From: Streptomyces sp. NBC_01210
Lineage (GTDB): Bacteria; Actinomycetota; Actinomycetes; Streptomycetales; Streptomycetaceae
Direction: 5' to 3'
Assembly: GCF_036010325.1 (NCBI RefSeq)
Contig: NZ_CP108549.1
Span: forward strand, 1,736,001-1,800,000
Length of the DNA stretch: 64,000 nucleotides
Below, one piece after another: positions 2,857-53,571 of this stretch (its first letter is position 1; the number at the start of each line of letters is the position of its first letter). The translations under genes and the position numbers were made by a program. The notes below the pieces were generated by a model. It was given only the letters and a program-made list of their open reading frames with translations, was not told the DNA's origin and did no database searches.

Positions 2857-3978
2857 TCAGGCCAGATAGGCCGGGGCGCCGACGGGCAGAATAAATCGGA
2901 ACTCGGCGCCGCCGCCGGGTCCACGGCCGACGGTGATCGTCCCGCCGTGCGCCTCGACGATGCCCTTGACGATGTAGAGACCCAGGCCCGTACCGCCGCG
3001 CTTGCTTCCCCGCCAGAAGCGGGTGAAGACACGGCCCATCGACTCCTCGGGGATGCCGGGGCCTTCGTCGCTCACGGTGACGGCCGTTCCCTTCTCGTCG
3101 TCCTTCGCGGATGCCGGTGCCACCTCGATGGTGACGGTTCCCTCGCCGTGGCGCACCGCATTTTCCAGCAGATTGCCGAGTACCTGGTCGATCTTGTCCG
3201 GATCGGCCCACATCTCGGGCAGCTCCCGCTGGATGCGTACGAAGAACCGGTCCGGCCGCTGGCCGCTGGCTATGTGGGCCTGGATGTGCCGACCGACGGC
3301 CGCCGCGATATCGACGGGCTGGCGGCGCACTTCGAGCCGTCCGGAGTCGATACGGGAGATGTCGAGCAGCTCCGCGATCAGCCGGGTGACACGGTTCGCG
3401 TCGGCGTCGACGGTCTCGAGCATCAGCCGCTTCTGGTCGTCGGTGAAGCGTTCCCACTTGGCGAGCAGCGTCGCTGTGAACCCCTTGACGGAGGTGAGCG
3501 GGGAGCGCAGTTCATGGGCGACGGTGGCGATCAGCTCGGCATGGCTGCGTTCGGTACGGCGCCGGGCCTCGGTGCCGCGCAGGCTGATGACCAGCCTGCG
3601 CAGGGGGCCGGTGGGGCGCTCGCGCACATAGCGGGCGGAGACGAGGACTTCACGGCCGCCGGGCAGCAGGAGATTGCGCTCGGGCTGACCGACACGAGTG
3701 GCGAGTCCGCCGTACGGATCGGTCAGCGTCCACCAGCGGCAGCCCTTGAGGTCCTCCAGGGGCAGCACACGCTCCAGCGGCAGGCCCAGCGCATCGGCCT
3801 TGGACACGGCCGTGATCCGTACGGCCGCGTCGTTGAAGCAGATCACCCGGCCGGTCTCGTCGGCGACGACCAGTCCGTCGGGAAGGTCGTCGGGGTCGAT
3901 CCCGTACGTGTCGGAGCCGTCGGAATGGCACAGCAACGCCCCGTGTGTCCCCGCGGGCCTGCTTGTCCCGACAGCCAT
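2857..3978 (-). CDS. Soluble PAS-domain sensor histidine kinase
   Basis: 373-aa cytoplasmic histidine kinase without membrane segments. A PAS-like domain occupies about residues 25-120 ([22 protein letters not shown]). The dimerisation/phosphoacceptor helix carries His155 in the H-box [13 protein letters not shown]. The ATPase domain shows the N-box [11 protein letters not shown]1 [10 protein letters not shown]-box FTRFWRG and G2 [11 protein letters not shown]. It autophosphorylates and should pass the phosphate to a response regulator, but no receiver-domain gene is in the window, so it is an orphan. It sits in the same direction between the rRNA methyltransferase and pheST, the conserved Streptomyces arrangement. 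Ligand and partner are unknown. Confidence 0.92.
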
Positions 3979-6587: not shown

Positions 6588-6647
6588 GGATGTCTGGCAG
6601 GCAGCCGCGTAACGTCTGTTTCGTAAGACCAACCGCACCGGATAATG

Positions 6648-6716
6648 AAAAATGCCCCGGACGGGACACAGGCGGCAGCTCCGTGAATACCGGAGCACCG
6701 CCGCGGTCAACCGCGG
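6648..6716 (-). promoter_or_regulatory. infC leader stem-loops with terminator-like hairpin (putative attenuator)
   Basis: In the roughly 270-nt infC leader three hairpins lie in a row, read on the minus strand. The first is a 6-bp stem CCGCGG/CCGCGG (6701-6716). The second is a long stem of 12 paired bases with one bulge (6671-6702) that overlaps the first by two bases, so they compete. The third is TGTCCC-GTCC-GGGGCA (6653-6668) followed at once by five U (6648-6652), a real intrinsic-terminator shape that is rare in this GC-rich DNA. The arrangement suggests transcription attenuation of infC-rpmI-rplT. The rest of 6588-6940 holds no gene that I can support. Confidence 0.55.
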
Positions 6717-6862
6717 GGCGCACATCGGGCGACTTCCATCGTCCGTACGGAACGATGGGCGCCGCCTGACCGGTGACCCGCCGCCCAGAAGGACGGCCAG
6801 GTGGGAGATCGGAGCCTCCACTTGTGGGCCGAGCACACACGTGTCCGGCCGGTCGTTACACA

Positions 6863-37956: not shown

Positions 37957-38061
37957 GTCGACGGGGAGATCTTTCGGCGGACGGCGCACAAGGAGTACGG
38001 GCGTGAGGACTTGGGCCCCGCGCGGACATGGACGTGTGACACCGGTGAAACAGCCCGTCCC

Positions 38062-38085
38062 TAATTTCTGTCACCCGACCGGAAT
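38062..38085 (+). promoter_or_regulatory. Diverged TetR operator over the permease -10
   Basis: The 22-bp stretch 38064-38085 matches 18 of 22 positions of the perfect TetR palindrome at 41930-41951. In both places CTAATTTCTGTC occurs, so a TAATTT -10 (38062-38067) overlaps the operator. The end lies about 30 bp before the permease start, the same spacing as in the carboxylase operon. Confidence 0.7.
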
Positions 38086-38115
38086 CAACAACCGGAATCA
38101 GCGACAGGGGCTGCC

Positions 38116-39714
38116 ATGACCGCCACCGCACCCACCGACGTACGACCCGATCCCCCGGAGAACGACCGCGGCGGCGACGCGACCGCGCTGGCCGGCTTCG
38201 GCTACCGGCAGGAGCTGCACCGCAGCATGGGGCGCTACGCCTCCTTCGCCGCCGGGTTCTCCTTCATCTCCGTCCTCACCACGGTCTTCCAGTTCTTCGC
38301 GTTCGGCTTCTCCTTCGGTGGCGCGGCCTTCTTCTGGACCTGGCCTGCCGTGCTGGCCGGGCAGTTGCTGGTCGCGGCCTGCTTCGCCGAACTCGCCGCC
38401 CGCTACCCGCTGTCGGGCGCGATCTACCAGTGGTCGACACGGCTCAGCACACCGTCCTTCGGCTGGTTCGCGGGCTGGATCATGGTGATCGGCCAGATCG
38501 TGGTGGTCGCCGCGGCAGCCCTGGCACTCCAGGTCGTACTCCCCGCGATCTGGCCGGGCTTCCAGCTGTTCGGCGGCGACCCGTCGCCCGTGACGCCGTC
38601 GGGCGCCGCGAACGCCGCGCTGCTCGCGGTCGTACTCCTCGTCCTGACCACCGCCGTCAACCTCCTCGACAACCGCGTCATGTCCGCCGTCAACCGCATC
38701 GGTGTGACCGCGGAGATCATCGGCGCGGTGCTGATCGTGGTGCTGCTCCTGACCCACTCCGAGCGTGGCGCGGGCGTCACCCTGCACACCGGCGGCCAGG
38801 GCGGAGCGATCGGCGCGCTGCTCGTCGGCTCCTTCACTGCGGCGTACGTCCTCATCGGCTTCGACAGCGCCGGCGAACTCAGCGAGGAGACCCGCAGCCC
38901 TCGCCGTACCGCCCCGCGCACGATCCTTCTCGCGCTGGTCTCGGCCGGTGTACTCGGCGGACTGCTGCTGCTCGGCGGGGTGCTGGCCGCGCCGAGTCTG
39001 ACCGACGGGCGGCTCGCGACCGAGGGTCTGTCGTACGTCCTCACCAGCAGCCTCGGCGACGGTGTCGGCAAGGCGCTGCTCATCGATGTGGTGATCGCCA
39101 TCGCGGTGGCCACGCTGGCCATCCAGACGGCGGGCGCCCGGATGCTCTTCTCGATGGCGCGCGACGGCGTCCTGCCCTTCTCGGCCCGCCTCGCAAAAGT
39201 CTCCCCGCGCACCGGAATGCCGGCCGGCCCCGCCCTGGCCGTCGGCGCGGCGGCCGCGGCGCTGGGCCTGCTCAACCTCGCCTCGCCGGAGGCCTTCCTC
39301 GCCATCGGCACGACCTGCATCGCCATGCTGTATCTGGCCTACGCGATGGTGACGGGCCCGATGCTGGTACGCAGACTGCGCGGCGAATGGGCCCGCGGCC
39401 CCGGCGCCGACGAGGTGGACGAGTCGGGCCGCCCACTGTTCTCGCTCGGCCGCTGGGGCCTGCCGGTCAACATCGTGGCACTGGCGTACGGCCTGTTCAT
39501 GACGGTGAACCTGGCCTGGCCGCGGGCGGCGGTGTACGACCCGTCGGGCGGGCACTGGTACTTCCAGTGGTTCACGGTGCTGTTCCTGCTGGGCACGGTG
39601 GGAATCGGAGCGATTGCGCGCGCGTGGAGGGCGCGCCGGGCGATCCCGGCACCGGAGGCCGGGCCGGCGCCGGAGGCCGGTCCCGCCGGAGGGCTGCCGG
39701 AAGGTGCGGCGTAG
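38116..39714 (+). CDS. APC-superfamily permease, probable guanidine/urea-pathway importer
   Basis: 532-aa transporter with 12-13 helices of the amino acid/polyamine/organocation superfamily. FAAGFSFISVLTTVFQFFAFGFSFGGAAFFWTWPAV and ELAARYPLSGAIYQWSTRLS are typical, as is the later SAGELSEETRSPRRTAPRTI. Such permeases commonly accompany urea/guanidine carboxylase genes. Here it is 3.4 kb upstream of that operon, but shares a matching operator sequence, which points to common TetR control. AGGGG lies 5 nt before the ATG. The C-terminal tail carries short Glu-Ala-Gly-Pro-Ala-Pro repeats. Substrate is inferred from regulation. Confidence 0.88.
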   Translation: MTATAPTDVRPDPPENDRGGDATALAGFGYRQELHRSMGRYASFAAGFSFISVLTTVFQFFAFGFSFGGAAFFWTWPAVLAGQLLVAACFAELAARYPLSGAIYQWSTRLSTPSFGWFAGWIMVIGQIVVVAAAALALQVVLPAIWPGFQLFGGDPSPVTPSGAANAALLAVVLLVLTTAVNLLDNRVMSAVNRIGVTAEIIGAVLIVVLLLTHSERGAGVTLHTGGQGGAIGALLVGSFTAAYVLIGFDSAGELSEETRSPRRTAPRTILLALVSAGVLGGLLLLGGVLAAPSLTDGRLATEGLSYVLTSSLGDGVGKALLIDVVIAIAVATLAIQTAGARMLFSMARDGVLPFSARLAKVSPRTGMPAGPALAVGAAAAALGLLNLASPEAFLAIGTTCIAMLYLAYAMVTGPMLVRRLRGEWARGPGADEVDESGRPLFSLGRWGLPVNIVALAYGLFMTVNLAWPRAAVYDPSGGHWYFQWFTVLFLLGTVGIGAIARAWRARRAIPAPEAGPAPEAGPAGGLPEGAA

Positions 39715-39753
39715 CCACCGCCGTGGCCGCGCTGTGCCGCCCCGTCGCGCGCC

Positions 39754-39990
39754 TCAGGCTTTGCCGGCCCTGGCCCTCCTGCGCGGAAAATCGGCGTCGT
39801 CCTCGGCCAGCGGAAGCGGCCGGTGGCCTTCCGTGTGGTCGTTGACCCAGCCGCACACTCCGCATGCGTAGCGCCCGTCAAGACCGGATACGCGGGTACC
39901 GCACTGCCTGCACTCGGTCTCGGTGATCTCGGGGGCGATGAGGGCCTCGGGATCGGGGAGGGGCTCGAAGTCCGGCAGCCAGTTGTTCAT
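39754..39990 (-). CDS. Small zinc-ribbon protein
   Basis: 78-aa acidic protein with two CxxC knuckles, CRQCG and CGVCG, spaced about 13 residues apart, a rubredoxin-like zinc ribbon (ETECRQCGTRVSGLDGRYACGVCGWVNDH). The C-terminus is Arg-rich (RRRARAGKA). No other domain is seen and no function is known. TAGCCT (complement of 39997-40002) lies 6 nt before the ATG at 39990, so the message is probably leaderless from ATG; a GTG one codon upstream is the alternative. Convergent with the permease. Confidence 0.78.
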   Translation of the reverse strand: MNNWLPDFEPLPDPEALIAPEITETECRQCGTRVSGLDGRYACGVCGWVNDHTEGHRPLPLAEDDADFPRRRARAGKA

Positions 39991-40068
39991 CACCGCAGGC
40001 TACCGTCGGCCCCGCGCGGGTGCCGATGCGGTGTACTGCTCGCCGCTGAGCCTCTCTACGCTGGCGGA

Positions 40069-41010
40069 ATGAACCGCGTGAACCGCGTCAACCGCATGGA
40101 CCGAGTGATCGGCACAGTCGTAGGCTCGGCGGTCGGCGACGCGCTGGGTGCGCCCTTCGAGTTCCGTGAGCCGGGCGTCTACACCACGCAATTCCCGGAC
40201 GGCGTGGGCGAGATGAGCGGGGGCGGCGGCTGGGACCCCGGCGAAGCGACGGACGACACACAGATGGCGGTGCTGGTCGGCGAATCACTGCTGGAACGGA
40301 ACGGACTGGATCTGCCGGACATCTTCGGCCGGTTCCAGCGCTGGGCGGCGGACGATCCGAAGGACATCGGCCTCCAGACCGAGGACGTGCTGACGAACGG
40401 CTCGCCGTGGGACCTCGCGGCACCGCTGCACTTCCACATCACGGGCCGGGCGGCCGGGAACGGCTCCGTGATGAGGGCCTCGACATCGGCGGTGTACTTC
40501 GCGGGTGCAGGAACCAGGGCCACGATGGCGGCCGCCCGCCGGATCGCGGCGCTGACCCACGGTGACCGCGCGGCCTGGGAGGGCACGGCGATCCTCCACG
40601 AACTGGTCCGCGCGGCCCTGGACGGCGCGGATCCGCTCACCGCCGTGCCGCCGACGCTGCAGCTGGTCGACGCGGACTACCGCGCCGGATGGGCGAAGGT
40701 ACTCGCAGCTGACTGGCACCCGGACGAGGCGACGGAGTTCAACGGCGCGGTATGGCCGTGTCTGGGCTCGGCGCTCTGGGCACTGCGCACAACGGCGTCG
40801 TACGAGGAGTCCGTGGCCGCGGCGATCGACCTGGGCGGCGACACGGACACGGTGGCGGCGGTGACGGGCATGCTGGCGGGGGCGGTGTACGGGATCGGGG
40901 CCATCCCGACGAGATGGCTGGAGCCGCTGCACGTACCGCTGCCGGGGTACGGGGGCCGGGTGCTGCGACTGGCTGAACTGACGTGGCTGGCCGAGGCGTT
41001 GGAGTCGTGA
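40069..41010 (+). CDS. ADP-ribosylglycohydrolase family protein
   Basis: 313 aa, DraG/ARH-like fold. Metal-binding residues are visible in GEATDDTQMAVLV and DLGGDTDTVAAVTGMLAGAVYG, and GSAVGDALGAPFEF opens the domain. It should cleave ADP-ribose from protein or other acceptors; the substrate is unknown. The N-terminus is a 9-bp repeat encoding Asn-Arg-Val three times, absent from the family, so translation might start at the Met of MDRVIGTVVG instead. TACGCT (40057-40062) 6 nt before the first ATG suggests a leaderless start there. It stands alone, without an ADP-ribosyltransferase neighbour. Confidence 0.88.
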   Translation: MNRVNRVNRMDRVIGTVVGSAVGDALGAPFEFREPGVYTTQFPDGVGEMSGGGGWDPGEATDDTQMAVLVGESLLERNGLDLPDIFGRFQRWAADDPKDIGLQTEDVLTNGSPWDLAAPLHFHITGRAAGNGSVMRASTSAVYFAGAGTRATMAAARRIAALTHGDRAAWEGTAILHELVRAALDGADPLTAVPPTLQLVDADYRAGWAKVLAADWHPDEATEFNGAVWPCLGSALWALRTTASYEESVAAAIDLGGDTDTVAAVTGMLAGAVYGIGAIPTRWLEPLHVPLPGYGGRVLRLAELTWLAEALES

Positions 41011-41121
41011 CGGCCGCCGGAGGGCCGGGCCTGTGCGGGGCGGCCGGTGGGTCTCCGACGGCGCGAGGCCGCCGCGCGGCGGCGGTATGGGGTGTCAGCC
41101 CCTGTGCAGCCCTCCCGCCAG

Positions 41122-41165
41122 GGGCCCGGGGGGAGTCTTCGGTTTCGGGAAGGGGCGGGGTGAGG
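41122..41165. repeat. Streptomyces intergenic repeat, degenerate copy
   Basis: Shares the tail TTTCGGGAAGGGGCGGGGTG with the copies at 22041 and 46990; the palindromic core is disrupted. Confidence 0.55.
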
Positions 41166-41181
41166 AAAACCGCGCCCTACC

Positions 41182-41808
41182 TCACGCCCCGGCGATCCGC
41201 AGCGCCGCATCCGCCGTCGCCCGCGCGAACACCCCCACCGCCCGCTCCGGATCCGACCTGTGCACCAGGATCACGCCCTCGATCAGCCCGAACACCAGGT
41301 CCGTACGGAGCTGGAGCTCGCCCTTGTCCAGCTCGGCCCCCGCCGCCGTCGCCCCCAGCAGCTGCCCGTACGCGTCCTTCAAATCCGCCCGCACCCGGTG
41401 GAAGCCGGCGAAGCGTTCGCCCCGCACCTCCGGCAGCAGATACAGCGCGCCCAGGTTGTGCGGCCCGCCGCACAGCAGCTCCACGTCCGAGCGGCACAGC
41501 TCCCACAGGAGCGTCTCCGCCGGACGCGTATCGTCCGCGAGCAGGTCGCGCGCCAGGGTCAGGGAGGGCGTGACCGTCGACTCGAGGAGCTCCGCGAGCA
41601 GGTCCTCCTTGCCCCCGAAGTAGTGGTACATCGTCGCCTGGCGCATCCCCGCGCTCTCCGCGACCACCCGCGTCGTGGTCGCCGCGTAGCCGTGCGTCGT
41701 GAACAACTCGGCCGCCGCGGCCAGCAGTTCGTCGCGCGCGGACAGCCCGCTGTCCGGCCGCTGCTCCGCGCGCGGCCGCCCGACCCGTCGTCCTGTGGTG
41801 GTGCCCAT
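41182..41808 (-). CDS. TetR-family repressor of the carboxylase operon
   Basis: 208 aa. The helix-turn-helix is SARDELLAAAAELFTTHGYAATTTRVVAESAGMRQATMYHYFGGKEDLLAELLE. The ligand domain follows and is Leu/Ala-rich. The ATG at 41808 (MGTTTGRRVGRPRAEQRP) is chosen since the upstream open frame reads through the operator. It is divergent from the DUF1989-carboxylase operon. The perfect palindrome in between and its copy before the permease at 38 kb are the probable binding sites. Guanidine or a derivative may be the inducer; this is inference. Confidence 0.9.
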   Translation of the reverse strand: MGTTTGRRVGRPRAEQRPDSGLSARDELLAAAAELFTTHGYAATTTRVVAESAGMRQATMYHYFGGKEDLLAELLESTVTPSLTLARDLLADDTRPAETLLWELCRSDVELLCGGPHNLGALYLLPEVRGERFAGFHRVRADLKDAYGQLLGATAAGAELDKGELQLRTDLVFGLIEGVILVHRSDPERAVGVFARATADAALRIAGA

Positions 41809-41927
41809 GCAGCCGATCGTCGCACACCCTCGGAGCGCCAACCGCACACCCCTTCGACCTGGGTCCCGGTGAGCGTTCCGTAACCGGCCGGCAACGGACG
41901 GGCAACGGCCCCGACTCCCCCTCCGCC

Positions 41928-41951
41928 TAATTTCTGTCGCGCGACAGAAAT
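41928..41951 (+). promoter_or_regulatory. TetR operator over the carboxylase-operon -10
   Basis: TTTCTGTCGCGCGACAGAAA (41931-41950) is a perfect 20-bp palindrome, extended by A and T to 22 bp. The -10 TAATTT (41928-41933) overlaps its left end, and the first gene starts 30 bp downstream. Confidence 0.88.
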
Positions 41952-41980: not shown

Positions 41981-42805
41981 ATGGCGACCGCGACGACATA
42001 CGGGGCCCGCGACCACGCCCGTGCGCAGGACGGCGCCCGCGCCGAGGCCATGCCGGTCGTGCCCGCGACCGACTGGCCCGCGCCGCCCTGCGGGGCCGGA
42101 CATCTGGTGTGGGCCGAGACCGTCGCGGGCGGCAACTACACCCACCGCGTGCTCGCCCGCGGCACTGAGCTGCGGCTCACGGACCTGCACGGAGACGCCT
42201 GCGCGCATGTGCTGCTGTACGTGGACGGGCGACCGTGGGAACGCCTCAACGCCGCCGACACGGTCAAGGTCCAGTGGAACGCCTACCTCCGCGCCGGGCA
42301 ATTGCTCCTCTCCGACCAGGGCCGCGTACTCGCCACTCTCGTCGCGGACACCGGAGGCCGGCACGACGCCCTGTGCGGCACCTCCACGCTCGTACGCAAC
42401 ACACAGCGGTACGGGGACGGTTCACCCCAGTCCGCCTCCCCGGCCGGCCGCGAGCTCCTCAAGCTCGCCGCGCTCAAGAACGGACTGGAGCCGCGCGATC
42501 TCCCGCCCTCCCTCTCCTTCTTCCAGGGCGTGGAGGTACGGGACGACGGCGCACTGGACTTCACCGGATCGGCCGGCCCCGGAGCCTCCGTGACGCTCCG
42601 CGCCGAGCAGGATCTGACGGTGCTGATCGCGAACGTCCCGCATCCTCTGGACCCGCGCGCCGAGTACACCAGCACGGCGCTGGAGGTGCTGGCCTGGCGC
42701 GCCGCGCCCACCGCGCCCGGCGATCCGCTCCGGGAGGCCTCACCCGAGGGACGCCGCGCCTACGCCAACACCATTGATTTCCTTGCCTCGAGGGGACTCG
42801 CATGA
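41981..42805 (+). CDS. DUF1989 protein, urea-amidolyase-associated protein 1 (carboxyguanidine deiminase subunit)
   Basis: 274-aa DUF1989 protein. CGAGHLVWAETVAGGNYTHRVLARGTELRLTDLHGDACAHVLLYV and HDALCGTSTLVRNTQRYGDGSP contain the conserved Cys and His residues that bind metal in this family. In bacteria these proteins form a heteromer with the second DUF1989 protein and have been described as carboxyguanidine deiminase (CgdAB), turning carboxyguanidine into allophanate. The C-terminus overlaps the next gene by 4 bp. First gene of the TetR-controlled operon. Confidence 0.88.
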   Translation: MATATTYGARDHARAQDGARAEAMPVVPATDWPAPPCGAGHLVWAETVAGGNYTHRVLARGTELRLTDLHGDACAHVLLYVDGRPWERLNAADTVKVQWNAYLRAGQLLLSDQGRVLATLVADTGGRHDALCGTSTLVRNTQRYGDGSPQSASPAGRELLKLAALKNGLEPRDLPPSLSFFQGVEVRDDGALDFTGSAGPGASVTLRAEQDLTVLIANVPHPLDPRAEYTSTALEVLAWRAAPTAPGDPLREASPEGRRAYANTIDFLASRGLA

Positions 42806-43407
42806 GCGCGACCACCGTCGTACCCGCCTGCGCCGCCTGGTCCGCCGTCGTCCGCGTCGGTGAGCAGCTGACCATCACCGATCTGCACGGCAATCAGGCC
42901 GTGGACTTCCTGGTGTACGACGCCCACGACACCGCCGTCCGCTACAGCGCAGCCGACACCGTCCACGCCCAGGGGAACATCTTCCTCACCACCGGGAGCG
43001 TGCTGATGTCGAACGAGCACACCCCGCTGATGACCGTCACCGAGGACACCTGCGGACGGCACGACACGGTCGGCGGCGCCTGCTCCAAGGAGTCCAACAC
43101 CCTGCGCTACGGACACCACACCTGGTCGCAGCACGCCTGCGTCGACAACTTCCTCGCGGAGGGCGCGCGTTACGGCCTCGGCAAGCGCGATCTGGTCTCC
43201 AACATCAACTGGTACATGAACGTCCCGGTCGAGAAGGACGGCACGCTCGGCATCATCGACGGCATCTCCGCGCCGGGCCTGCGCGTCACCCTGCACGCCG
43301 AGACCGATGTCCTGGTCCTCGTCTCCAACTGCCCTCAGATCAACAACCCGTGCAACGGATTCGAACCGACCGCCGTCAAGATGACGATCAGCGAGGCCGC
43401 CGTATGA
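42802..43407 (+). CDS. DUF1989 protein, urea-amidolyase-associated protein 2 (carboxyguanidine deiminase subunit)
   Basis: 201-aa partner of the preceding protein. Visible conserved blocks: LTITDLHGNQAVDFLVYDAHDTAVRYSAADTV, TCGRHDTVGGACSKESNTLRYGHH and NINWYMNVPVEKDGTLGIIDGISAPG, ending NCPQINNPCNGFEPTAVKM. Cys and His residues in RHD..GGACSKE and NCPQ are family metal ligands. It overlaps both neighbours by 4 bp (ATGA junctions), so three proteins are tightly coupled. Confidence 0.88.
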   Translation: MSATTVVPACAAWSAVVRVGEQLTITDLHGNQAVDFLVYDAHDTAVRYSAADTVHAQGNIFLTTGSVLMSNEHTPLMTVTEDTCGRHDTVGGACSKESNTLRYGHHTWSQHACVDNFLAEGARYGLGKRDLVSNINWYMNVPVEKDGTLGIIDGISAPGLRVTLHAETDVLVLVSNCPQINNPCNGFEPTAVKMTISEAAV

Positions 43408-46400
43408 CCGCGTTCGACACGCTGCTGGTCGCCAACCGGGGCGAGATCGCCGTCCGTATCATCCGCACCGCCCGCCGCCTCGGGCTGCGTACGGTCGCCG
43501 TCTACTCCGACCCCGACCGCGCCGCACCTCATGTCCGGCTCGCCGACGAGGCGGTACGGCTCGGCCCCGCGCCCGCCAAGGAGTCGTATCTCGACGCCGA
43601 TCTCATACTCAGGGCCGCGAAGGACACGGGCGCGGGCGCCATCCACCCCGGTTACGGCTTCCTCTCCGAGGACGCGGACTTCGCGCGCCGCTGCGAGGAC
43701 GCCGGGCTCGTCTTCGTCGGGCCGACCGCCGGGCAGCTGGAACTCTTCGGCGCGAAGCACACCGCGCGGGCCGCCGCCGAGGCCGCGGGCGTACCGCTCG
43801 CCCCCGGCACCGGGCTGCTGCCCGACCTGGCCGCCGCGCTGGCGGCGGCGGACGGCATCGGCTACCCGGTGATGCTCAAGGCGACGGGCGGCGGTGGCGG
43901 CATAGGCATGCGGGCCGTGCACGACGCCGAGGGCCTGGCCGACGCATGGGAGCGGGTGCACCGGGTCGCCGCGGCCTCCTTCTCCTCGGCCGGCGTCTTC
44001 CTGGAGCGCCTGGTCGAGCGCGCCCGCCATGTCGAGGTGCAGATCTTCGGTGACGGCGAGGGCCGGGTGGTCACCTTCGGCGACCGCGACTGCTCGCTCC
44101 AGCGCCGCAACCAGAAGGTGCTGGAGGAGGCCCCGGCGCCAGGTCTGCCCGATTCCGTACGCACACAACTGACGTCCTCCGCACGGGAGTTGTGCGCCAG
44201 TGTCGGTTACCGCTCGGCCGGCACGGTCGAGTTCGTGTATGACGCGGCCCGGGAGGAGGCGTACTTCCTGGAGGTCAACACCCGCCTCCAGGTGGAGCAT
44301 CCGGTGACCGAGGAGATCTATGGCGTCGATCTCGTCGAGTGGATGCTGCGGCTCGCGCAGGGCGAGACGGCTGTCGTACGCGAGCCGGGCGCACCGCGCG
44401 GACACGCCGTCGAGGCCCGCGTCTACGCCGAGGACCCGAGCCGCGACCACCGCCCCGGCGCCGGCCTGCTGACCCGGGTGTCCTTCCCCACCGACGTACG
44501 TGTCGACTCCTGGGTCGAGACGGGGACAGAGGTGACGACGGCGTACGACCCGATGCTGGCGAAGGTCGTGGCGTACGGCGCCGATCGTGCCGAGGCCATC
44601 GAGCGGCTGGACTCCGCGCTGGCCGCGACCCGCGTCGACGGCATCGAGACGAATCTGGGCCTGGTGCGGGCCGCGCTCGCCGACGCGTCCGTACGGGCCG
44701 CCGCACACAACACCGCGACGCTGGCGACGATCAGCGACCCGACGCCGCGGATCGAGGTCATGGCGTCGGGAACCCTCACCACCGTCCAGGACTGGCCGGG
44801 CCGCACCGGCTACTGGCAGGTCGGCGTGCCGCCGTCGGGGCCGATGGACGATCGCTCGTTCCGCCTCGGCAACCGCGCGCTCGGCAACGACGAGGGCACG
44901 CCAGGACTGGAGTGCACGCTGCAGGGTCCGACGCTGCGGTTCACGCACGCGGCGACGGTCTGCGTTGCGGGCGCGCCCGCGCCGGTGACGGTCGACGGTG
45001 AACCGGTCAGCCAGTGGGAGCCGTTCACCGTCCCCGCGGGTTCCTCACTGGCCATCGGCACCCCCGGCGGCCAGGGCCTGCGCACCTACATCCTGTTCGC
45101 GGGCGGTCTGGACGTCCCGGACTTCCTGGGCAGCGCGGCCACGTTCACGCTGGGCCGGTTCGGCGGCCACGGCGGCCGGGCGCTGCGTACGGGCGATGTC
45201 CTGCACGGCGGCACGGCGGCGGTGACCGGCCCGGGCGTTGCCGGCGCGCCCGTCCCGCACGCCGAGCGCCCCCTCTTCCCGAACTTCTGGCACATCGCGG
45301 TGACAGAAGGCCCGCACGCCGCACCGGAGTTCTTCACCGAGGAGGACATCCACGACTTCTATGCCGCCGAGTGGAAGATCCACTTCAACTCCGCGCGCAC
45401 GGGCGTGCGGCTGATCGGCCCGAAGCCGCGGTGGGCGCGGACGGACGGCGGGGAGGCGGGACTGCACCCGTCCAACATCCACGACACTCCGTACTCGGTC
45501 GGCGCGGTCGACTACACCGGAGACATGCCCGTGCTGCTGGGCCCGGACGGCCCGTCGCTCGGCGGCTTCGTCTGCCCGGCGACGATTCTGAAGGCGGAGC
45601 GCTGGAAACTCGGCCAGCTACGGCCGGGGGACACGGTCAGGTTCGTCCCGGTGACGGTCGAGGGCGAGGAGCGCCGGATCATCGTCGACGGCGGGATCCT
45701 CGGGCGGGGCGAGTCGGTCACGTACCGCCGCAGCGGGGACGACAATCTGCTGGTCGAGTACGGGGAGATGCAGCTGGATCTCGCTCTGCGGATGCGGGTG
45801 CACGCACTGGCCGAGGCGGTGGCGGCAGAGGAACTGCCGGGCGTCGTGGATCTGACGCCGGGCATCCGCTCGCTCCAGATCCAGATCGACCCGGAGACCC
45901 TCTCCCAGTCGGCCCTCCTCTCCGTCCTGACCCGCCTCGAGTCCGAACTCCCGCCCTCGAACGCCCTGGTGGTGTCGTCACGGACGGTCCACCTCCCCCT
46001 GTCCTGGGACGACCCGGCGACGCGGGAGGCGATCGCCCGCTATATGGCCGGGGTTCGGGACGACGCGCCGTGGTGTCCGTGGAACATCGAGTTCATCCGC
46101 CGCGTCAACGGCCTCGATTCGGTGGACGACGTCTACCGCACGGTCTTCGACGCGGAATATCTCGTACTCGGGCTGGGCGACGTCTACTTGGGCGCACCGG
46201 TCGCCACGCCGCTGGACCCGCGGCACCGGCTGGTCACGACGAAGTACAACCCGGCCCGGACATGGACGGCGGAGAACTCGGTCGGGATCGGCGGCGCGTA
46301 CTTGTGCGTCTACGGCATGGAAGGGCCCGGCGGTTATCAGTTCGTGGGCCGTACGACTCAGGTGTGGTCACGCTGGCAGGAACGGCCGTGGCTGCTGCGC

Positions 46401-46910
46401 TTCTTCGACCGGATCAAGTGGTACGCGGTCGAGGCGGACGAACTTCTGGAACTTCGCGCGGACATGGCGGCGGGCCGCTTCACGCCCCGTATCGAGGAGG
46501 GAACGTTCTCGCTGGCGGACCACCAGCGCTTCCTCGTCGAGAACGCGGAGTCGATCGCGTCCTTCCGCGCCCGCCAGTCGAGGGCCTTCGGGGCGGAACG
46601 CGACGCATGGGAGGCGGCGGGCGAGTTCACCCGCGCGGAGTCGACTGGCGCGCCCGCGGTCCCCGAACTGGACGTTCCGCCGGGCGGGCAGGTCGTGGAG
46701 GCCGAATTCGCCGCCTCGGTCTGGCAGTTGAACGTGGAGCCGGGGGCTGTTGTCACGCCCGGTCAGCCGCTGCTGACGCTGGAAGCGATGAAGATGGAAT
46801 CCCGCGTGCACGCGCCGTACGCGGCGCGGGTCGCGCGATTCCTGGTCACGCCCGGCACCCAGGTGGAAGCGGGCACCCCGCTGGCCATCCTGACCCCCAC
46901 GAACCCCTGA
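43404..46910 (+). CDS. Biotin-dependent urea/guanidine carboxylase
   Basis: 1168-aa multidomain carboxylase. The biotin carboxylase domain spans about 1-450 (LLVANRGEIAVRIIRTARRLG, GGGGGIGMRAVHD, RHVEVQIFGDGEG, FLEVNTRLQVEHPVTE). The carboxyltransferase KipI/KipA-like part follows (TTVQDWPGRTGYWQVGVPPSGPMDDRSF, HPSNIHDTPYSVGAVDYTGDMPVLLG). The biotinyl domain at the C-terminus has Lys near 1130 in EAMKMES. No allophanate hydrolase is fused, unlike fungal urea amidolyase. Because two DUF1989 proteins precede it, the physiological substrate is more likely guanidine than urea, a distinction sequence reading alone does not prove. Confidence 0.93.
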   Translation: MTAFDTLLVANRGEIAVRIIRTARRLGLRTVAVYSDPDRAAPHVRLADEAVRLGPAPAKESYLDADLILRAAKDTGAGAIHPGYGFLSEDADFARRCEDAGLVFVGPTAGQLELFGAKHTARAAAEAAGVPLAPGTGLLPDLAAALAAADGIGYPVMLKATGGGGGIGMRAVHDAEGLADAWERVHRVAAASFSSAGVFLERLVERARHVEVQIFGDGEGRVVTFGDRDCSLQRRNQKVLEEAPAPGLPDSVRTQLTSSARELCASVGYRSAGTVEFVYDAAREEAYFLEVNTRLQVEHPVTEEIYGVDLVEWMLRLAQGETAVVREPGAPRGHAVEARVYAEDPSRDHRPGAGLLTRVSFPTDVRVDSWVETGTEVTTAYDPMLAKVVAYGADRAEAIERLDSALAATRVDGIETNLGLVRAALADASVRAAAHNTATLATISDPTPRIEVMASGTLTTVQDWPGRTGYWQVGVPPSGPMDDRSFRLGNRALGNDEGTPGLECTLQGPTLRFTHAATVCVAGAPAPVTVDGEPVSQWEPFTVPAGSSLAIGTPGGQGLRTYILFAGGLDVPDFLGSAATFTLGRFGGHGGRALRTGDVLHGGTAAVTGPGVAGAPVPHAERPLFPNFWHIAVTEGPHAAPEFFTEEDIHDFYAAEWKIHFNSARTGVRLIGPKPRWARTDGGEAGLHPSNIHDTPYSVGAVDYTGDMPVLLGPDGPSLGGFVCPATILKAERWKLGQLRPGDTVRFVPVTVEGEERRIIVDGGILGRGESVTYRRSGDDNLLVEYGEMQLDLALRMRVHALAEAVAAEELPGVVDLTPGIRSLQIQIDPETLSQSALLSVLTRLESELPPSNALVVSSRTVHLPLSWDDPATREAIARYMAGVRDDAPWCPWNIEFIRRVNGLDSVDDVYRTVFDAEYLVLGLGDVYLGAPVATPLDPRHRLVTTKYNPARTWTAENSVGIGGAYLCVYGMEGPGGYQFVGRTTQVWSRWQERPWLLRFFDRIKWYAVEADELLELRADMAAGRFTPRIEEGTFSLADHQRFLVENAESIASFRARQSRAFGAERDAWEAAGEFTRAESTGAPAVPELDVPPGGQVVEAEFAASVWQLNVEPGAVVTPGQPLLTLEAMKMESRVHAPYAARVARFLVTPGTQVEAGTPLAILTPTNP

Positions 46911-46989
46911 CCGGGGCGGAGTCCTCCCCCACCCCGCGCCTTCCCGGGCTTCGCCGCCAGACCCCCAGTCCTCAATCTCCGGACGATCA

Positions 46990-47060
46990 AGCCTCGCCGG
47001 CGATTGAGGCGCGGGGTCCGGGGCGGAGAGCCCCGGTTACGGGAAGGGGCGGGTAGGGGA
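46990..47060. repeat. Streptomyces intergenic repeat, copy 2
   Basis: Nearly identical to the element at 22041-22107 (CCGGCGATTGAGGCGCGGGG core, then CCGGGGCGGAGAGCCCCGG and TTACGGGAAGGGGCGGG). It fills most of the gap between the carboxylase and allophanate hydrolase genes and may fold into a hairpin that lowers expression of the latter. Confidence 0.8.
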
Positions 47061-47112
47061 CAAGATCCCCAGCCCGTACCTCGACCACCCCCCACCCCAA
47101 GGAGCCGCCCCC

Positions 47113-48747
47113 ATGCCCACCACCGCCCTCGCCCGCGTCCGGGACGCATACGACCGCATCGACCGCGCCCGTCGGCCCGACATCTGGATCACCCTCCGCC
47201 CCCGCGCCGACGCCGAATCGGACGCCCGCGCCGTCGACGCGCGCGTCGCCGCCGGTGAGCAACTCCCCCTCGCCGGCCGCGCCGTCGCCGTCAAGGGCAA
47301 CATCGACATCGGCGGCCTCCCCACTACCGCCGGCTGCCCCTCCTACGCCTATACCCCGTCCGCCGACGCCCCCTCCGTCGCCAGGCTCAGAGCCGCCGGT
47401 GCCATCGTGCTCGGCAGTACCAACATGGATCAGTTCGCCACCGGCCTCGTCGGCACCCGCTCGCCGTACGGCGCGGTACGCAGCGCCCACGACCCGGCAA
47501 GGATCGCCGGAGGATCCAGCTCCGGATCCGCCGTCGCCGTCGCCCTCGGCATCGCGGACCTCGCGCTCGGCACGGACACCGCCGGCTCCGGCCGTGTCCC
47601 CGCCGCCTTCAACGGCATCGTCGGCATCAAGCCCACCCGAGGCATCGTCCCCACCGACGGCGTCGTCCCCGCCTGCGCGAGCCTCGACTGCGTCAGCGTC
47701 TTCGCCCGCACACTCCCCGAGGCCGAACTCGCCCTCGCCCTCATCGCCACGCCACCCGGCCGCGCGGCCCCGCACCGCACCCCCGGCCCCTGGCGGGTCG
47801 CTGTGCCGCCGACGGAGCAGCTCGGGGCCATGGACGAGGGCTGGGTCGAGGCATACGAAGCGGCAGCAGGCCGTCTCGCGCACGCCGGCGCCCTCCTCAG
47901 CCCCATCGACCTCACCCCCTTCACCGAGGCGGCCGCGCTCCTCTACGACGGCGCATTCGTCGCCGAGCGCTACACCGCCACAGGCGCCTTTGTCGACAAG
48001 GAAACGAACGACCTCGATCCCACCGTCGCCGCCATCATCCGCCGCGCCCGCGACATCCCCGCCCATCGGCTCTTCGCCGACCAGGCCCGGCTCAGCGCCC
48101 TCCGCGCCCGCGCCATGACCGCCCTCGCGGAAGCGGACGCGCTCCTCCTGCCCACCACTCCAGGCCACCCCACCCTCGACGACGTCGCCGCCGACCCGTT
48201 CGGCGCCAATGCCCGGCTCGGCCGGTTCACCAACTCCACCAATCTCTTCGACCTCGCCGCGGTCGCCGTCCCCGCAGGTGAAGTGGACGCCCGCCCCTTC
48301 GGCGTCATGCTGATCGGCCCGGCCGGCACGGACGACCGACTCGCCCGGATCGCCGCACTGCTCACTCCGCCCGTTCGCCTCGCCGTCGTCGGAGCCCACC
48401 TCACCGGCCAGCCCCTCAACCCCCAACTCCTCGCCCTCGGCGCCCGGTTGATCCGTACCACCACCACAGCCCCCGCCTACCGGCTCTTCGCCCTGCGTAC
48501 CGACCCGCCCAAGCCGGGCCTTGTCCATGTGGACAGCGACGGTCGGCATATCGAGGCCGAGATCTGGGAGCTGCCTCCGGAGGGCCTCGGCACGCTCACC
48601 GCCACCCTCCCCCGCCCCATGGCGATCGGCCGCCTGGAACTGGCCGACGGCACCACCGCCCCCGGTTTCCTCTGCGAACCCGCCGCCCTCGACGGCGCCG
48701 TCGACATCACGGCGTACGGCGGCTGGCGAGCGTACAGAAACAGTTGA
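47113..48747 (+). CDS. atzF: Allophanate hydrolase
   Basis: 544-aa amidase-signature enzyme that splits allophanate into ammonia and CO2, the last step after carboxylation and deimination. Catalytic Lys61 (AVKGNID), the cis-Ser in GGSSSGSA (135-141) and Ser159 in GTDTAGSGR form the triad. The C-terminal domain after residue 430 (TTTAPAYRLFALRTDPPKPGLVHVDSDG) is typical of the full-length AtzF type. It follows the carboxylase after 200 bp including the repeat, so it may share the operon promoter or use an internal one. Confidence 0.94.
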   Translation: MPTTALARVRDAYDRIDRARRPDIWITLRPRADAESDARAVDARVAAGEQLPLAGRAVAVKGNIDIGGLPTTAGCPSYAYTPSADAPSVARLRAAGAIVLGSTNMDQFATGLVGTRSPYGAVRSAHDPARIAGGSSSGSAVAVALGIADLALGTDTAGSGRVPAAFNGIVGIKPTRGIVPTDGVVPACASLDCVSVFARTLPEAELALALIATPPGRAAPHRTPGPWRVAVPPTEQLGAMDEGWVEAYEAAAGRLAHAGALLSPIDLTPFTEAAALLYDGAFVAERYTATGAFVDKETNDLDPTVAAIIRRARDIPAHRLFADQARLSALRARAMTALAEADALLLPTTPGHPTLDDVAADPFGANARLGRFTNSTNLFDLAAVAVPAGEVDARPFGVMLIGPAGTDDRLARIAALLTPPVRLAVVGAHLTGQPLNPQLLALGARLIRTTTTAPAYRLFALRTDPPKPGLVHVDSDGRHIEAEIWELPPEGLGTLTATLPRPMAIGRLELADGTTAPGFLCEPAALDGAVDITAYGGWRAYRNS

Positions 48748-48920: not shown

Positions 48921-50030
48921 ATGCCCGTCGAGTTTCTCGGCATCGCCGCAACCAATGAAGGCTCCGAAGTCACGCCCCGTTCCGGGCCGTCCTTCGACAA
49001 GGAGTACACGCTCAAGCTCGCCCGCGCCCACGAGGACCACGGCTGGGACCGCGTCCTGTTCGCGTACGGCTCCGGCTCGCCCGACCCCTCCCCGGCCGCC
49101 GCGTACATCGCGGCCCGCACCGAGAAGCTCCAGATCCTCGTCGCGCACCGCCCCAACGTCGCGTACCCGACCTTCGCCGCGAAGACCTTCGCCACGCTGG
49201 ACCGGATCAGCGACGGCCGGCTCGCCGTCCACTTCATCACCGGCGGCAACGACCACGAGCAGCAACGCGAGGGCGACTTCCTCACCAAGGACGAGCGCTA
49301 CGCCCGTACCCGCGAAGCCATCCAGATCATCAAGAAGGCCTGGACGAGCCATGAGCCCTTCGACCACGAGGGCACGCACTACCGCTTCAGCGACTTCGTG
49401 AGCGACACCTTCCCCGTACAACAGCCGCATCCGCGCGTCTCGTTCGGCGGTTCCTCGCCCGCGGCCTACGAGGCCGGTGGTGCCGAGGCCGATATCTACT
49501 GCCTCTGGGGCGAGCCCCTCGCCGAGACCGCTCAGCAGATCGAGTCGGTGAAGGCGGCCGCGAAGGCGGCGAGCCGCACCGATGTCCCCAAGATCCAGGT
49601 GGCGTTCCGGCCGATCATCGCGCCCACCGAGGAACTCGCCTGGGAGAAGGCGTACCGGACCCTCGACCGGATCAAGGCACGCAAGGCGGGCGCGCCGCCC
49701 AGCCGCCGCCACCCGCTCAAGGACCCGGAGAACACGGGCTCACAGCGCCTTCTGACCGTCGCCGCGCGGAGCGAGCGGCACGACCGCGCGCTGTGGACGC
49801 CGACCGCGGCCGAAACGGGCGGCGCGGGCAACTCCACCGCGCTCGTCGGCACGCCCGAGACCGTCGCCCGGGCACTGCTCGACTACTACGACCTCGGCGT
49901 GGAGATTCTCTCCGCCCGTGGCTACGACCTGCTGGACGACGCGATCGACTTCGGCCGCCAGGTGATCCCGATCGTGCGTGAGGAAGTCGCCAAGCGCGAC
50001 GCCGCGAAGGCGATTGACGCCGCCGCGTGA
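48921..50030 (+). CDS. LLM-class flavin-dependent oxidoreductase (SsuD-like)
   Basis: 369-aa reduced-flavin monooxygenase of the bacterial luciferase-like family. MPVEFLGIAATNEGSEVTPRSG, YTLKLARAHEDHGWDRVLFAYGSGSPDPSPAAAYIAARTEKLQILVAHRPN and the loop FGGSSPAAYEAGGAEADIYCLWGEPLAE match alkanesulfonate/dimethylsulfone monooxygenases. It needs FMNH2 from a reductase encoded elsewhere. GAGG lies 7 nt before the ATG. Monocistronic; sulfonate desulfurisation is the likely role, the exact substrate is not readable. Confidence 0.88.
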   Translation: MPVEFLGIAATNEGSEVTPRSGPSFDKEYTLKLARAHEDHGWDRVLFAYGSGSPDPSPAAAYIAARTEKLQILVAHRPNVAYPTFAAKTFATLDRISDGRLAVHFITGGNDHEQQREGDFLTKDERYARTREAIQIIKKAWTSHEPFDHEGTHYRFSDFVSDTFPVQQPHPRVSFGGSSPAAYEAGGAEADIYCLWGEPLAETAQQIESVKAAAKAASRTDVPKIQVAFRPIIAPTEELAWEKAYRTLDRIKARKAGAPPSRRHPLKDPENTGSQRLLTVAARSERHDRALWTPTAAETGGAGNSTALVGTPETVARALLDYYDLGVEILSARGYDLLDDAIDFGRQVIPIVREEVAKRDAAKAIDAAA

Positions 50031-50586: not shown

Positions 50587-53415
50587 TCAGCCCACCGAGC
50601 TGTACGCCACCACACCCCGCAGCAGCGCGTCGACCGCCCTGCGCGCGTTCTTGGCGACCGTGCTGCCCTCGCGCGGCGCGGCTGCCGCGATCTGGCCGAG
50701 GACGTCGATGACCTGCTTGCTCCAGCGGACGAAGTCGCCGGCAGGCATCTCCGCCTCGCGCAGCACCTCGTCCAGGCTCCGGTCGGAGGCCCACTGGTAC
50801 GCGGCCCAGGCGAAGCCGAGATCGGGTTCGCGCTGTCCGACACCCTCCGCCTGGTTGATCTTGAACTCTTCCTCCAGGGCGTCGAGCCGGCCCCAGATGT
50901 GCACCATCTCGCCGAGTGCGACCTTCGCCTTGCCCGCCGGGACCTTGGGCGCCACCGCGTCGTCCGACTGCCGCGCCTCGTACACCAACGCCGAGGCGCA
51001 GGCGGCCAGTTCGGCCGGACTGAGTCCCTCCCACACACCGTCACGCAGGCATTCGCTCGCCAGCAGATCCAGCTCGCCGTACAGCCGGGCGAGCCGCCTG
51101 CCGTGCTCGGTGACCTCGTCCGCGCGCAGATAGTCCAGCTCGGTCAGCAGCGCCACGATCCGGTCGAAGGTACGGGCGATGGTGTTCGTACGCCCCTCGA
51201 TGCGCCGCTCCAGCTGCTGGGTGTCGCGCTGCAGCCGGTGGTACCGCTCCGCCCACCGCGCATGATCCTCGCGCTCGTCGCAACCGTGGCAGGGGTGCGC
51301 GCGCAGCTCCGCACGGAGCCGGCTGATCTCACGGTCGTCGGCGGCCGCGGCCCGCTGCTTGCGGTGCCGCTCGGGAACGATGTGGCCGGCCTTCGTCCGC
51401 AGCGCGGACGCCAGATCGCGCCGCGACTGGGGCGAGCGTGGATTGAAGGACTTCGGGATCCGCATCCGCTCCAGCGCCTCGACCGGCACCGGGAAGTCCA
51501 TCGACGCCAGCCGCTTGACCTGCCGCTCGGCGGTCAGGACCAGCGGCCGCGGGCCGTCGTGCTGCTCGAAGCCGCGGTGGCCGTTACTACGTCCGGCCGG
51601 GAAGCCCGGGTCGAGCACCAGCGCGAGGCCCGCGAACTTGCCCGTCGGGACATGGATGACATCACCGGGCTTCAGCTTCTCCAGCGAGGAGGCCGCGGCG
51701 GCCCGCCGCTGTGCGACGCCCTGCTTGGCCAGCTCCGTCTCGCGGTCCTTGAGCTCACGGCGCAGCCGTGCGTACTCCTCGAAGTCCCCCAAGTGGCAGG
51801 TCATGCCCTCGCGGTAACCCTCGAGCCCCTCTTCGTTCTTCTGCACCTGGCGACTTATGCCGACGACCGACTTGTCCGCCTGGAACTGCGCGAACGACGT
51901 CTCGAGCAGCTCGCGCGAGCGGTGGCGCCCGAACTGCTGCACCAGATTGACGGCCATGTTGTACGAGGGCCTGAAGCTGGAGCGCAGGGGATATGTGCGG
52001 GTGCCCGCGAGACCGGCGAGTGCGGCCGGGTCCATGCCCCGCTGCCACAGCACCACCGCATGGCCCTCGACATCGATGCCGCGCCGTCCGGCCCGGCCGG
52101 TGAGCTGGGTGTACTCACCAGGGGTGATGTCGGCGTGCTGCTCGCCGTTCCACTTGACGAGCTTCTCCAACACCACTGACCGGGCAGGCATGTTGATGCC
52201 GAGCGCCAGTGTCTCGGTGGCGAAGACGGCCTTGACCAGACCGCGTACGAAGAGCTCTTCGACGACCTCCTTGAAGGTCGGCAGCATGCCGGCGTGGTGC
52301 GCGGCGATGCCCCGCTCCAGACCTTCCAACCACTCGTAGTAACCCAGGACATGCAGATCCTCGCCGGGGATGGCGGCGGTCCGCTCCTCGACGATCTCGC
52401 GCACCTTGAGCCGCGCTTCCTCGTCGTTGAGCCGCAGCCCCGCGTACATGCACTGCTGTACGGCAGCTTCGCAGCCCGCCCGGCTGAAGATGAAGGTGAT
52501 CGCGGGCAGCAGCCCTTCCGCGTCGAGCCGCTCGATGACCTCGGGCCGTCCCGGTGTCCAGATCCGGGTGCGCTGGCGCCGCTCACGCTCACGGTCCGCC
52601 TCACGGACCATCTTGCCGCGGCGGCGGTCGCGAGGGTTGTACGTGCGCTGGTTCTCCATCCGTGCCATGCGTACGAGATCGGGGTTGACCTCGCGCCGGG
52701 TCACACCGCGGCCGCCGTGGTCGGTCTCCTCCTCGAAGAGGTCGTACATCCGGCGGCCGGCCATGACGTGCTGCCACAGCGGCACGGGCCGGTGCTCGGA
52801 GACGATCACCTCGGTGTCGCCACGGACGGTGTCCAGCCAGTCGCCGAACTCCTCGGCGTTCGAAACGGTGGCCGACAGGGACACCAGGGTCACCGACTCA
52901 GGGAGGTGAATGATCACTTCCTCCCAGACGGCACCGCGGAAGCGGTCGGAGAGGTAGTGGACCTCGTCCATGACCACATGGCCGAGCCCGAACAGGGACT
53001 GCGAGCCCGCGTACAGCATGTTGCGCAGTACCTCGGTGGTCATCACGACCACCGGTGCCTCGGAGTTGACGCTGTTGTCGCCGGTGAGCAGGCCGACCTT
53101 GTCCGCGCCATAGCGCCTGGCGAGGTCGGTGTACTTCTGGTTGGACAGTGCCTTGATGGGTGTGGTGTAGAAGCATTTGCGGCCCTGCTGAAGAGCCAGG
53201 TGGACGGCGAACTCGCCGACGATGGTCTTGCCGGAGCCGGTGGGCGCCGCGACGAGCACGCCCTTGCCCGCTTCCAGGGCCTGACAGGCTTCGATCTGGA
53301 AGGGGTCCAGGTCGAATTCGTACAGCGCTCGGAAGGGGGCCAGCGCAGTGGCCTCCTCAGCGGCGCGGATACGGGCAGCGGCGTAGCGCTCAGCGGGAGA
53401 GAGGTCCTCGGTCAT
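50587..53415 (-). CDS. helY: DExH-box RNA helicase (HelY/Mtr4-like)
   Basis: 942-aa superfamily 2 helicase. Motifs in order: Walker A APTGSGKT, TTPIKALSNQKY, DEVH box VMDEVHYLSDRFRG, motif III LSATVSN, and motif VI QLTGRAGRRGID. A long DSHCT-like C-terminal domain follows (YNMAVNLVQQFGRHRSRELLETSFAQFQADKS). It likely remodels RNA in turnover with exonucleases. The ATG at 53415 (MTEDLSPAERY) is the common actinobacterial N-terminus; GTG 53424 and ATG 53439 are possible. The downstream tatC gene begins an adjoining leftward group. Confidence 0.93.
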   Translation of the reverse strand: MTEDLSPAERYAAARIRAAEEATALAPFRALYEFDLDPFQIEACQALEAGKGVLVAAPTGSGKTIVGEFAVHLALQQGRKCFYTTPIKALSNQKYTDLARRYGADKVGLLTGDNSVNSEAPVVVMTTEVLRNMLYAGSQSLFGLGHVVMDEVHYLSDRFRGAVWEEVIIHLPESVTLVSLSATVSNAEEFGDWLDTVRGDTEVIVSEHRPVPLWQHVMAGRRMYDLFEEETDHGGRGVTRREVNPDLVRMARMENQRTYNPRDRRRGKMVREADRERERRQRTRIWTPGRPEVIERLDAEGLLPAITFIFSRAGCEAAVQQCMYAGLRLNDEEARLKVREIVEERTAAIPGEDLHVLGYYEWLEGLERGIAAHHAGMLPTFKEVVEELFVRGLVKAVFATETLALGINMPARSVVLEKLVKWNGEQHADITPGEYTQLTGRAGRRGIDVEGHAVVLWQRGMDPAALAGLAGTRTYPLRSSFRPSYNMAVNLVQQFGRHRSRELLETSFAQFQADKSVVGISRQVQKNEEGLEGYREGMTCHLGDFEEYARLRRELKDRETELAKQGVAQRRAAAASSLEKLKPGDVIHVPTGKFAGLALVLDPGFPAGRSNGHRGFEQHDGPRPLVLTAERQVKRLASMDFPVPVEALERMRIPKSFNPRSPQSRRDLASALRTKAGHIVPERHRKQRAAAADDREISRLRAELRAHPCHGCDEREDHARWAERYHRLQRDTQQLERRIEGRTNTIARTFDRIVALLTELDYLRADEVTEHGRRLARLYGELDLLASECLRDGVWEGLSPAELAACASALVYEARQSDDAVAPKVPAGKAKVALGEMVHIWGRLDALEEEFKINQAEGVGQREPDLGFAWAAYQWASDRSLDEVLREAEMPAGDFVRWSKQVIDVLGQIAAAAPREGSTVAKNARRAVDALLRGVVAYSSVG

Positions 53416-53571
53416 CTTGCTCACGAGCCTACCCGTCACCTCTGACAGTGAGCGCGATCTTTAATTGACCGGGGCAAGTACCGGTACGGGCACCCGCACG
53501 GCGCCCGGAACGCACAAGCGGCCGGTTGCGCGGCGTGCGCGCCCCGGCCGCGTCCCGCGGTGGTACTGGCG

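Follow-up and report, generated by a model that had tools for sequence, protein, structure and literature searches.

Which regulator ties an APC permease gene to a carboxylase operon lying 3.9 kb away, and which nitrogen compound the two serve, is the question raised by a locus of Streptomyces sp. NBC_01210, analysed here within a 64-kb window (positions 1,736,001-1,800,000 of the 9.08-Mb contig NZ_CP108549.1; genome total 9.2 Mb). From left to right, the permease gene (+), an ADP-ribosylglycohydrolase-like gene (+), amtR (-) and the operon cgdA-cgdB-gca-atzF (+, 41981-48747) follow one another. Guanidine assimilation is probably the function of the locus, with AmtR as its regulator. The AmtR wiring of the permease and the carboxylase is known, and what is new is the evidence that the regulon serves, and may sense, guanidine. 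The sequence comparison covers the operators, their conservation, the identity of AmtR, GlnR-like boxes, the carboxylase signature and gene linkage; AmtR binding to the permease promoter, repression by AmtR and dependence on GlnR have been published for the Mycobacterium smegmatis homologue (PMC4222082).

Two Operators of One Type

Site 1, ATTTCTGTCGCGCGACAGAAAT (41930-41951), a perfect 22-bp palindrome between amtR and cgdA, was the sole match at up to three mismatches in the whole genome and thus also in the window, for which 100 shuffles gave an expectation of 0.00. Site 2, ATTTCTGTCACCCGACCGGAAT (38064-38085), in the permease promoter, is identical to site 1 at 18/22 positions. The pattern TTTCTGTCNNNNGACAGAAA at up to three mismatches gave seven sites in the 9.2-Mb genome, and the reversed control pattern gave one; as scored against TTTCTGTCN4GACAGAAA genome-wide, the two sites were the best (0 mismatches for site 1, 2 for site 2), the five others having 3 each. 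The distance from the operator centre to the ATG is 40.5 bp for cgdA (ATG at 41981) and 41.5 bp for the permease (ATG at 38116). Each site is overlapped by a -10-like TAATTT, a putative -10 (plus strand; 41928-41933 at site 1, 38062-38067 at site 2). The CCTAA with which this region starts is conserved 5' of the operator in 34 cgdA and 29 permease promoters. A sequence-only reading of the same DNA had placed a perfect 20-bp palindrome over the -10 of the carboxylase operon; the palindrome is real, its length is 22 bp, and the -10 is a predicted one.

Promoters of related genomes were compared after leaving out genes less than 50% identical to those of the window, aligned starts beyond residue 30 and upstream sequences shorter than 200 bases. 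Within the genus, the site was found at up to one mismatch in 34/40 cgdA promoters and at up to two mismatches in 29/35 permease promoters, and all 29 genomes of the first layout with both promoters readable carry both sites. Scrambled palindromes (up to 300 scrambles) gave 0 sites in the same-genus promoters, and no site at up to four mismatches was found in same-genus genomes 5' of cgdB (45), gca (40) or atzF (39). The other six cgdA promoters belong to an alternative layout, permease-cgdA-cgdB-gca-atzF, all in one direction, with the single site TACCTGTCN4GACAGGTA 5' of the permease in 5/6 of the remaining permease promoters; the one without a site belongs to a partial permease copy (G094). 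One genome (G043) has one site only and no permease match at the threshold used. Outside the genus, CTGTCN4GACAG at up to one mismatch stands near the starts of the permease, cgdA or amtR in 65/84 loci (scrambled half-sites: maximum 9, mean 1.5), and in 15/34 and 24/45 loci of other genera the permease is the immediate upstream neighbour of cgdA, in the same orientation. The earlier observation of an 18/22 copy at the permease, at the same distance from its start (within 1 bp), is confirmed, and the claim of one TetR-family operator at two promoters is supported, the two sites being the genome's best and present together in 29/29 same-genus genomes.

The number of sites at up to two mismatches was two in 16, three in 11, five in one and one in one of the 29 genomes with both AmtR and the operon; one in four and none in six of the ten AmtR genomes without the operon; and one in two and none in nine of the eleven genomes without AmtR. 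A larger AmtR regulon was rejected, as the 12 extra sites inspected adjoin unrelated genes and give no consistent third target; a site pair seemingly common to operon-less AmtR genomes (L189-L191) was also rejected, because the adjoining genes differ. Two further observations concern the operator itself: it occurs in two tandem copies 5' of a permease (G013:C90:135960-135999), and TTTCTGTCTCAGGACGGAAA (one copy with one change) was found in four genomes (L193-L196, near 3031-3070) between a lipoprotein-like and a divergent gene, its centre differing from that of the usual AmtR site.

Identity of the Regulator

The amtR product (208 amino acids; 41182-41808, minus strand, stop codon included) contains the TetR_N domain PF00440 (63.5 bits, cut-off 24). 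The best match in a PDB sequence search was M. smegmatis AmtR 5e57 (E 3.5e-38), followed by the AmtR of Corynebacterium glutamicum (E 3e-29), and the structure model (predicted local distance difference test score 88.6) returned the same AmtR proteins as the top Foldseek matches. The operator core, CTGTC-N4-GACAG, is that of the non-Corynebacterium AmtR type. As judged by sequence and modelled structure, the TetR protein of the locus is AmtR. The family given in the sequence-only reading stands, with the addition that the protein is AmtR and that its control of the permease/carboxylase set had already been published: a study of 2013 proposed, from ten genomes including that of S. avermitilis, that AmtR governs an amino acid permease, two frames of unknown function, a urea carboxylase and an amidase, and in M. 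smegmatis AmtR bound the permease promoter and its loss raised the transcripts (PMC4222082).

AmtR is also kept without the guanidine operon (L036, L038, L042, L070 and similar loci), and a helicase of about 950 amino acids adjoins it in 4/5 loci inspected; this helicase resembles that of the window at 50587-53439, a picture that would fit loss of the operon with retention of its regulator.

Carboxylase Signature and the Substrate

The guanidine carboxylase signature is aspartate at the positions corresponding to K. lactis 1330 (asparagine in urea carboxylase) and 1584 (PMC11410670). In the biotin carboxylase encoded by gca (43404-46910, plus strand), D703 is aligned with N1330 and D926 with D1584. 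Because the carboxylase has both signature residues, guanidine is likelier than urea as the substrate, and the guanidine side is favoured in what the sequence-only reading had called a guanidine/urea operon. The 1330 motif was found in 72/87 loci, with D in 68, M in 3 and I in 1. All 68 D-type loci have an AmtR-like match, 65 in the locus itself (a weak one of 77 bits in L153) and three elsewhere in the genome (L130, L134, L156), and the four non-D loci (L151, L152, L144, L154) belong to genomes without an AmtR match at E 1e-12. Two of these four stand under guanidine-I riboswitches, and the D/N rule may be incomplete.

The genes cgdA (UAAP1; 41981-42805) and cgdB (UAAP2; 42802-43407), both on the plus strand, encode two DUF1989 subunits (TIGR03425, 309.7 bits, cut-off 205.95; TIGR03424, 328.4 bits, cut-off 284.7), which a source available in part describes as the subunits of carboxyguanidine deiminase; atzF (47113-48747, plus strand) encodes allophanate hydrolase (TIGR02713, over the cut-off). 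Two loci (L143, L148) have cgdA, cgdB and atzF without a gca match in the 20-kb locus, and their genomes have no AmtR match.

Guanidine Riboswitches in Place of AmtR

No Rfam guanidine aptamer was found at the gathering score in the 64-kb window, and guanidine-I was not found in the window's genome; as the two genome-wide searches, for guanidine-I and guanidine-III, scored part of their candidates (61-80 per genome, with stricter filters), absences are tentative. Of the 50 genomes that have the pathway or AmtR, two (G466, G424) gave guanidine-I over the cut-off. In both, the aptamer stands about 50 bp 5' of the start of a permease homologue (56% and 57% identical), followed by the pathway genes, with no AmtR in the genome and no CTGTC palindrome at the locus. 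This arrangement suggests that the same gene set is under guanidine RNA in some genomes and under AmtR in others. The aptamer at L151 scored 63.0 bits and was over the cut-off in one search, being absent from the gathering-score list of another.

The window's genome does contain a guanidine-III aptamer (44.8 bits, gathering 36), 1.76 Mb away and 33 bp 5' of the gene for a 106-residue SMR protein, to which SugE is nearest (111.5 bits, under the cut-off of 126); the riboswitch-exporter arrangement is at C1:3536647-3537065, or 6648-7066 of L171. Guanidine-III was found in 31/50 genomes, in 29 over the cut-off, the following gene having been checked in the window's genome only. The proposal of a TetR protein in place of the guanidine riboswitch thus fits the operon, with no aptamer in the window, but does not extend to the whole genome, which keeps guanidine-III before a SugE-like exporter.

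GlnR-like Boxes and the Proposed Mechanism

When the promoters were aligned by the operator, common elements appeared at -62, -51, -40, -29 and -18 (11-bp spacing), followed by CCTAA and the operator. The elements are GTGAG, GTAAC, GCAAC and GCAAY for cgdA (in the window, GTGAG-n6-GTAAC-n6-GCAAC-n6-GCAAC at 41869-41906, plus strand) and GTGAG, a weaker element, GACAC, GTNAC and GAAAC for the permease (in the window, GTGAG at 38003-38007, at -62 and first of the phased set, and the box GTGAC-n6-GAAAC at 38036-38051, both on the plus strand). The GlnR pattern is gTnAc-n6-GaAAc, repeated, according to the available part of PMC10704036. GTNACN6GNAAC at up to one mismatch was found in 34/34 cgdA and 29/34 permease upstream regions (shuffled means 0.7 and 0.9, maxima 5 and 4), a conservation to which descent contributes; the cgdA and permease promoters are otherwise dissimilar. 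By sequence, both promoters display the 11-bp-phased gTnAc/GaAAc arrangement of a GlnR regulon, and because both carry such boxes, nitrogen status is probably a second input via a GlnR-type activator.

The mechanism proposed is that an AmtR dimer would bind the same operator in the two promoters and, as the operator overlaps the -10-like element, would repress both, by an assumed steric block. The targets would be the divergent cgdA-cgdB-gca-atzF operon, predicted to convert guanidine to carboxyguanidine, allophanate and ammonia, and the APC permease 3.9 kb away, the proposed guanidine importer. The GlnR-type activator at the phased boxes would probably give the nitrogen-starvation signal, as for the homologous genes of M. 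smegmatis, and AmtR would be a second gate. Its most likely effector would be guanidine, for which we put the chance a little short of even.

Possible Sensing by AmtR and Alternative Explanations

The AmtR residue comparison left 17/87 loci without an entry (no match, under 80 bits or too short). In the 59 operon-linked AmtR proteins, D108, E127, Y147 and E177 are invariant; one of the 17 dropped loci (L121) has D in place of E127. Among 80 named AmtR loci, the 50 outside Corynebacterium (45 of which contain cgdB or gca) have D108, Y147 and E177 in all cases and E (47) or D (3) at position 127, and the 30/30 Corynebacterium proteins (L201-L230) have no acid at 127 (V, I, M or T) and 177 (L, Q or T). 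Residues 108/127/177 are D/E/E in the M. smegmatis AmtR structure and E/I/M in C. glutamicum. In the structure model, D108, E127 and E177 fall on helices 97-114, 126-129 and 162-185, and these helices line the ligand pocket in TetR proteins. Such acids and aromatics would suit guanidinium binding, their placement being given by helix positions alone. The fuller proposal that the non-Corynebacterium AmtR is a protein guanidine sensor, with a pocket of D108, E127, E177, Y123, F136 and Y147 and release from the operator, and that Corynebacterium lost this pocket as its AmtR turned into a PII-gated general nitrogen repressor, is offered tentatively, as something that may well prove wrong. Within Corynebacterium, C. 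efficiens is given in PMC4222082 as a species that has the operon. An AmtR-guanidine link was not found in the open-licence literature searched, which lacks the two main AmtR papers.

The strongest competing explanation, a possible one that we nevertheless consider unlikely, is that AmtR has no small-molecule inducer and acts as a constant brake, overridden under nitrogen starvation by GlnR competition or activation and perhaps by antisense RNA, with guanidine metabolised and unsensed. In M. smegmatis, nitrogen control survived the loss of AmtR but not that of GlnR, and DNA binding by AmtR did not respond to 0.5-5 mM urea or amino acids (PMC4222082); the GlnR-like boxes stand directly 5' of both operators; and later M. 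smegmatis work, in the part available, proposes AmtR/GlnR competition and antisense RNA. However, guanidine is not among the effectors tested in the available part of PMC4222082, a guanidine riboswitch controls the equivalent operons found elsewhere, and outside Corynebacterium the effector domain shows no variation at its acidic and aromatic residues.

The permease (38116-39714, plus strand; 532 amino acids) is a putative guanidine importer. The protein scored 633.5 bits against TIGR03428 (urea carboxylase system permease), below the cut-off of 740.45, and is a close relative outside that family. Its tie to the pathway, claimed by the sequence-only reading, is upheld by the operator common to relatives, by the linkage 5' of cgdA and by its first place after the guanidine-I riboswitch in two genomes. 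The substrate might instead be a larger guanidino compound, for example methylguanidine or a derivative of arginine or agmatine, that the cell then converts to guanidine, or else a different amino compound. In favour of this, the relatives of known structure found by sequence transport cationic amino acids (CAT4, E 4e-16; the GeoBacillus-type 5oqt, E 4.5e-11), and another operon of the pathway demethylates methylguanidine to guanidine (available part of PMC12508155). This is rather improbable, as the 56-57% identical permeases come first after the riboswitch in those two genomes, guanidine import in comammox and other ammonia oxidizers has been ascribed, as a proposal, to an APC permease (PMC11410670, part available), and the operon is without an amino-acid-degrading gene. 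Permease paralogues elsewhere are 46-49% identical, one of them in the window's genome beside a GMC oxidoreductase.

Release of AmtR by the adenylylated PII protein GlnK, proposed for C. glutamicum in the available part of PMC8864220 and favoured by the same family and fold, is very unlikely here. The effector domain differs from that of the Corynebacterium AmtR at 108, 127, 136, 147 and 177. M. smegmatis AmtR reportedly does not bind PII (Petridis 2016).

Still less credible is that the system degrades urea, as implied by its NCBIfam annotation (TIGR02712 urea carboxylase, UAAP1/2) and by the way in which the AmtR regulon was interpreted in 2013, given the signature at D703/D926, the assignment of CgdA/CgdB to carboxyguanidine deiminase, and M. 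smegmatis, which did not grow on urea and whose AmtR did not respond to it (PMC4222082). A chance resemblance of site 2, a weaker copy at 18/22, is refuted in practice by its conservation, being second-best in the genome and present at the permease promoter in all 29 relatives read at both promoters.

Several points weigh against an AmtR-guanidine regulon and its sensing. The support for the window locus is all at the level of sequence, and the compared genomes are related, which makes their counts interdependent. With 2 mismatches, the permease site of the window itself ranks in the weakest three of 29, 19/84 loci outside the genus have no site at up to one mismatch, and 5/34 permease promoters fail the GlnR-like test at 1 mismatch. 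The GlnR-dependent, AmtR-independent nitrogen control of M. smegmatis (PMC4222082) means that AmtR may be a minor input. At the signature position, M replaces D in the carboxylases of the two riboswitch loci; 11/11 same-genus AmtR proteins without the operon nearby keep E127 and E177; Corynebacterium is one clade, hence one event; and the acids could be structural.

Other Features of the Window

The ADP-ribosylglycohydrolase-like gene between the permease and amtR (40069-41010, plus strand) occurs elsewhere only in L032 among 46 other loci. A luciferase-like (alkanesulfonate monooxygenase-related) gene lies directly 3' of atzF (48921-50030), and an Rfam match to the Streptomyces small RNA Scr1601 (180.3 bits) was found at 6647-6857 on the minus strand.

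Significance

In mycobacteria and streptomycetes, the AmtR regulon has so far been classed with urea metabolism, with a repressor lacking a known effector. A guanidine regulon, if true, would simply explain the puzzle of 2013, namely no release by urea and no growth of M. smegmatis on urea, and many actinomycete "urea carboxylase system" annotations would need correction. If guanidine releases AmtR, the effector that the 2013 work looked for in vain would be known, and in the guanidine assimilation of actinomycetes a TetR-type protein would fill the role played elsewhere by the guanidine-I riboswitch. With RNA for export and protein for use, one genome would then clearly exemplify the sensing of a single small molecule by two types of sensor.

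Comparison with the Closest Known Systems

The M. smegmatis regulon (msmeg_2184 permease, urf1/2, urea carboxylase msmeg_2187, amidase msmeg_2189) has the same regulator family, target genes, small size and TetR-type repressor as the locus of the window; its permease promoter was bound in vitro and its activator is GlnR (PMC4222082). In the S. avermitilis counterpart (sav6709, sav6698, sav6697, sav6701), amtR is divergent and the permease apart, as in the window. That work was read as urea metabolism with no effector, while the carboxylase signature and the riboswitch counterpart of the window point to guanidine. The 22-bp consensus of S. avermitilis AmtRsav, TAtCTGTCa-n2-cGACAGATAT, given for strains with GlnR and AmtR in the available part of PMC8864220, has the CTGTC...GACAG core in common with the window. 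The C. glutamicum AmtR is the same in family, fold and DNA-binding half, but differs as a global nitrogen repressor with the motif CTAT-N6-ATAG (from a source available in part) and without acidic residues at 127 and 177. Finally, the riboswitch-controlled guanidine carboxylase operons, and the APC permease and guanidinase of Nitrospira inopinata (PMC12186494; PMC11410670, in part), co-regulate an importer with degradation, as in the window; in the riboswitch systems it is RNA that senses guanidine, whereas the operon of the window has a repressor protein in that place.

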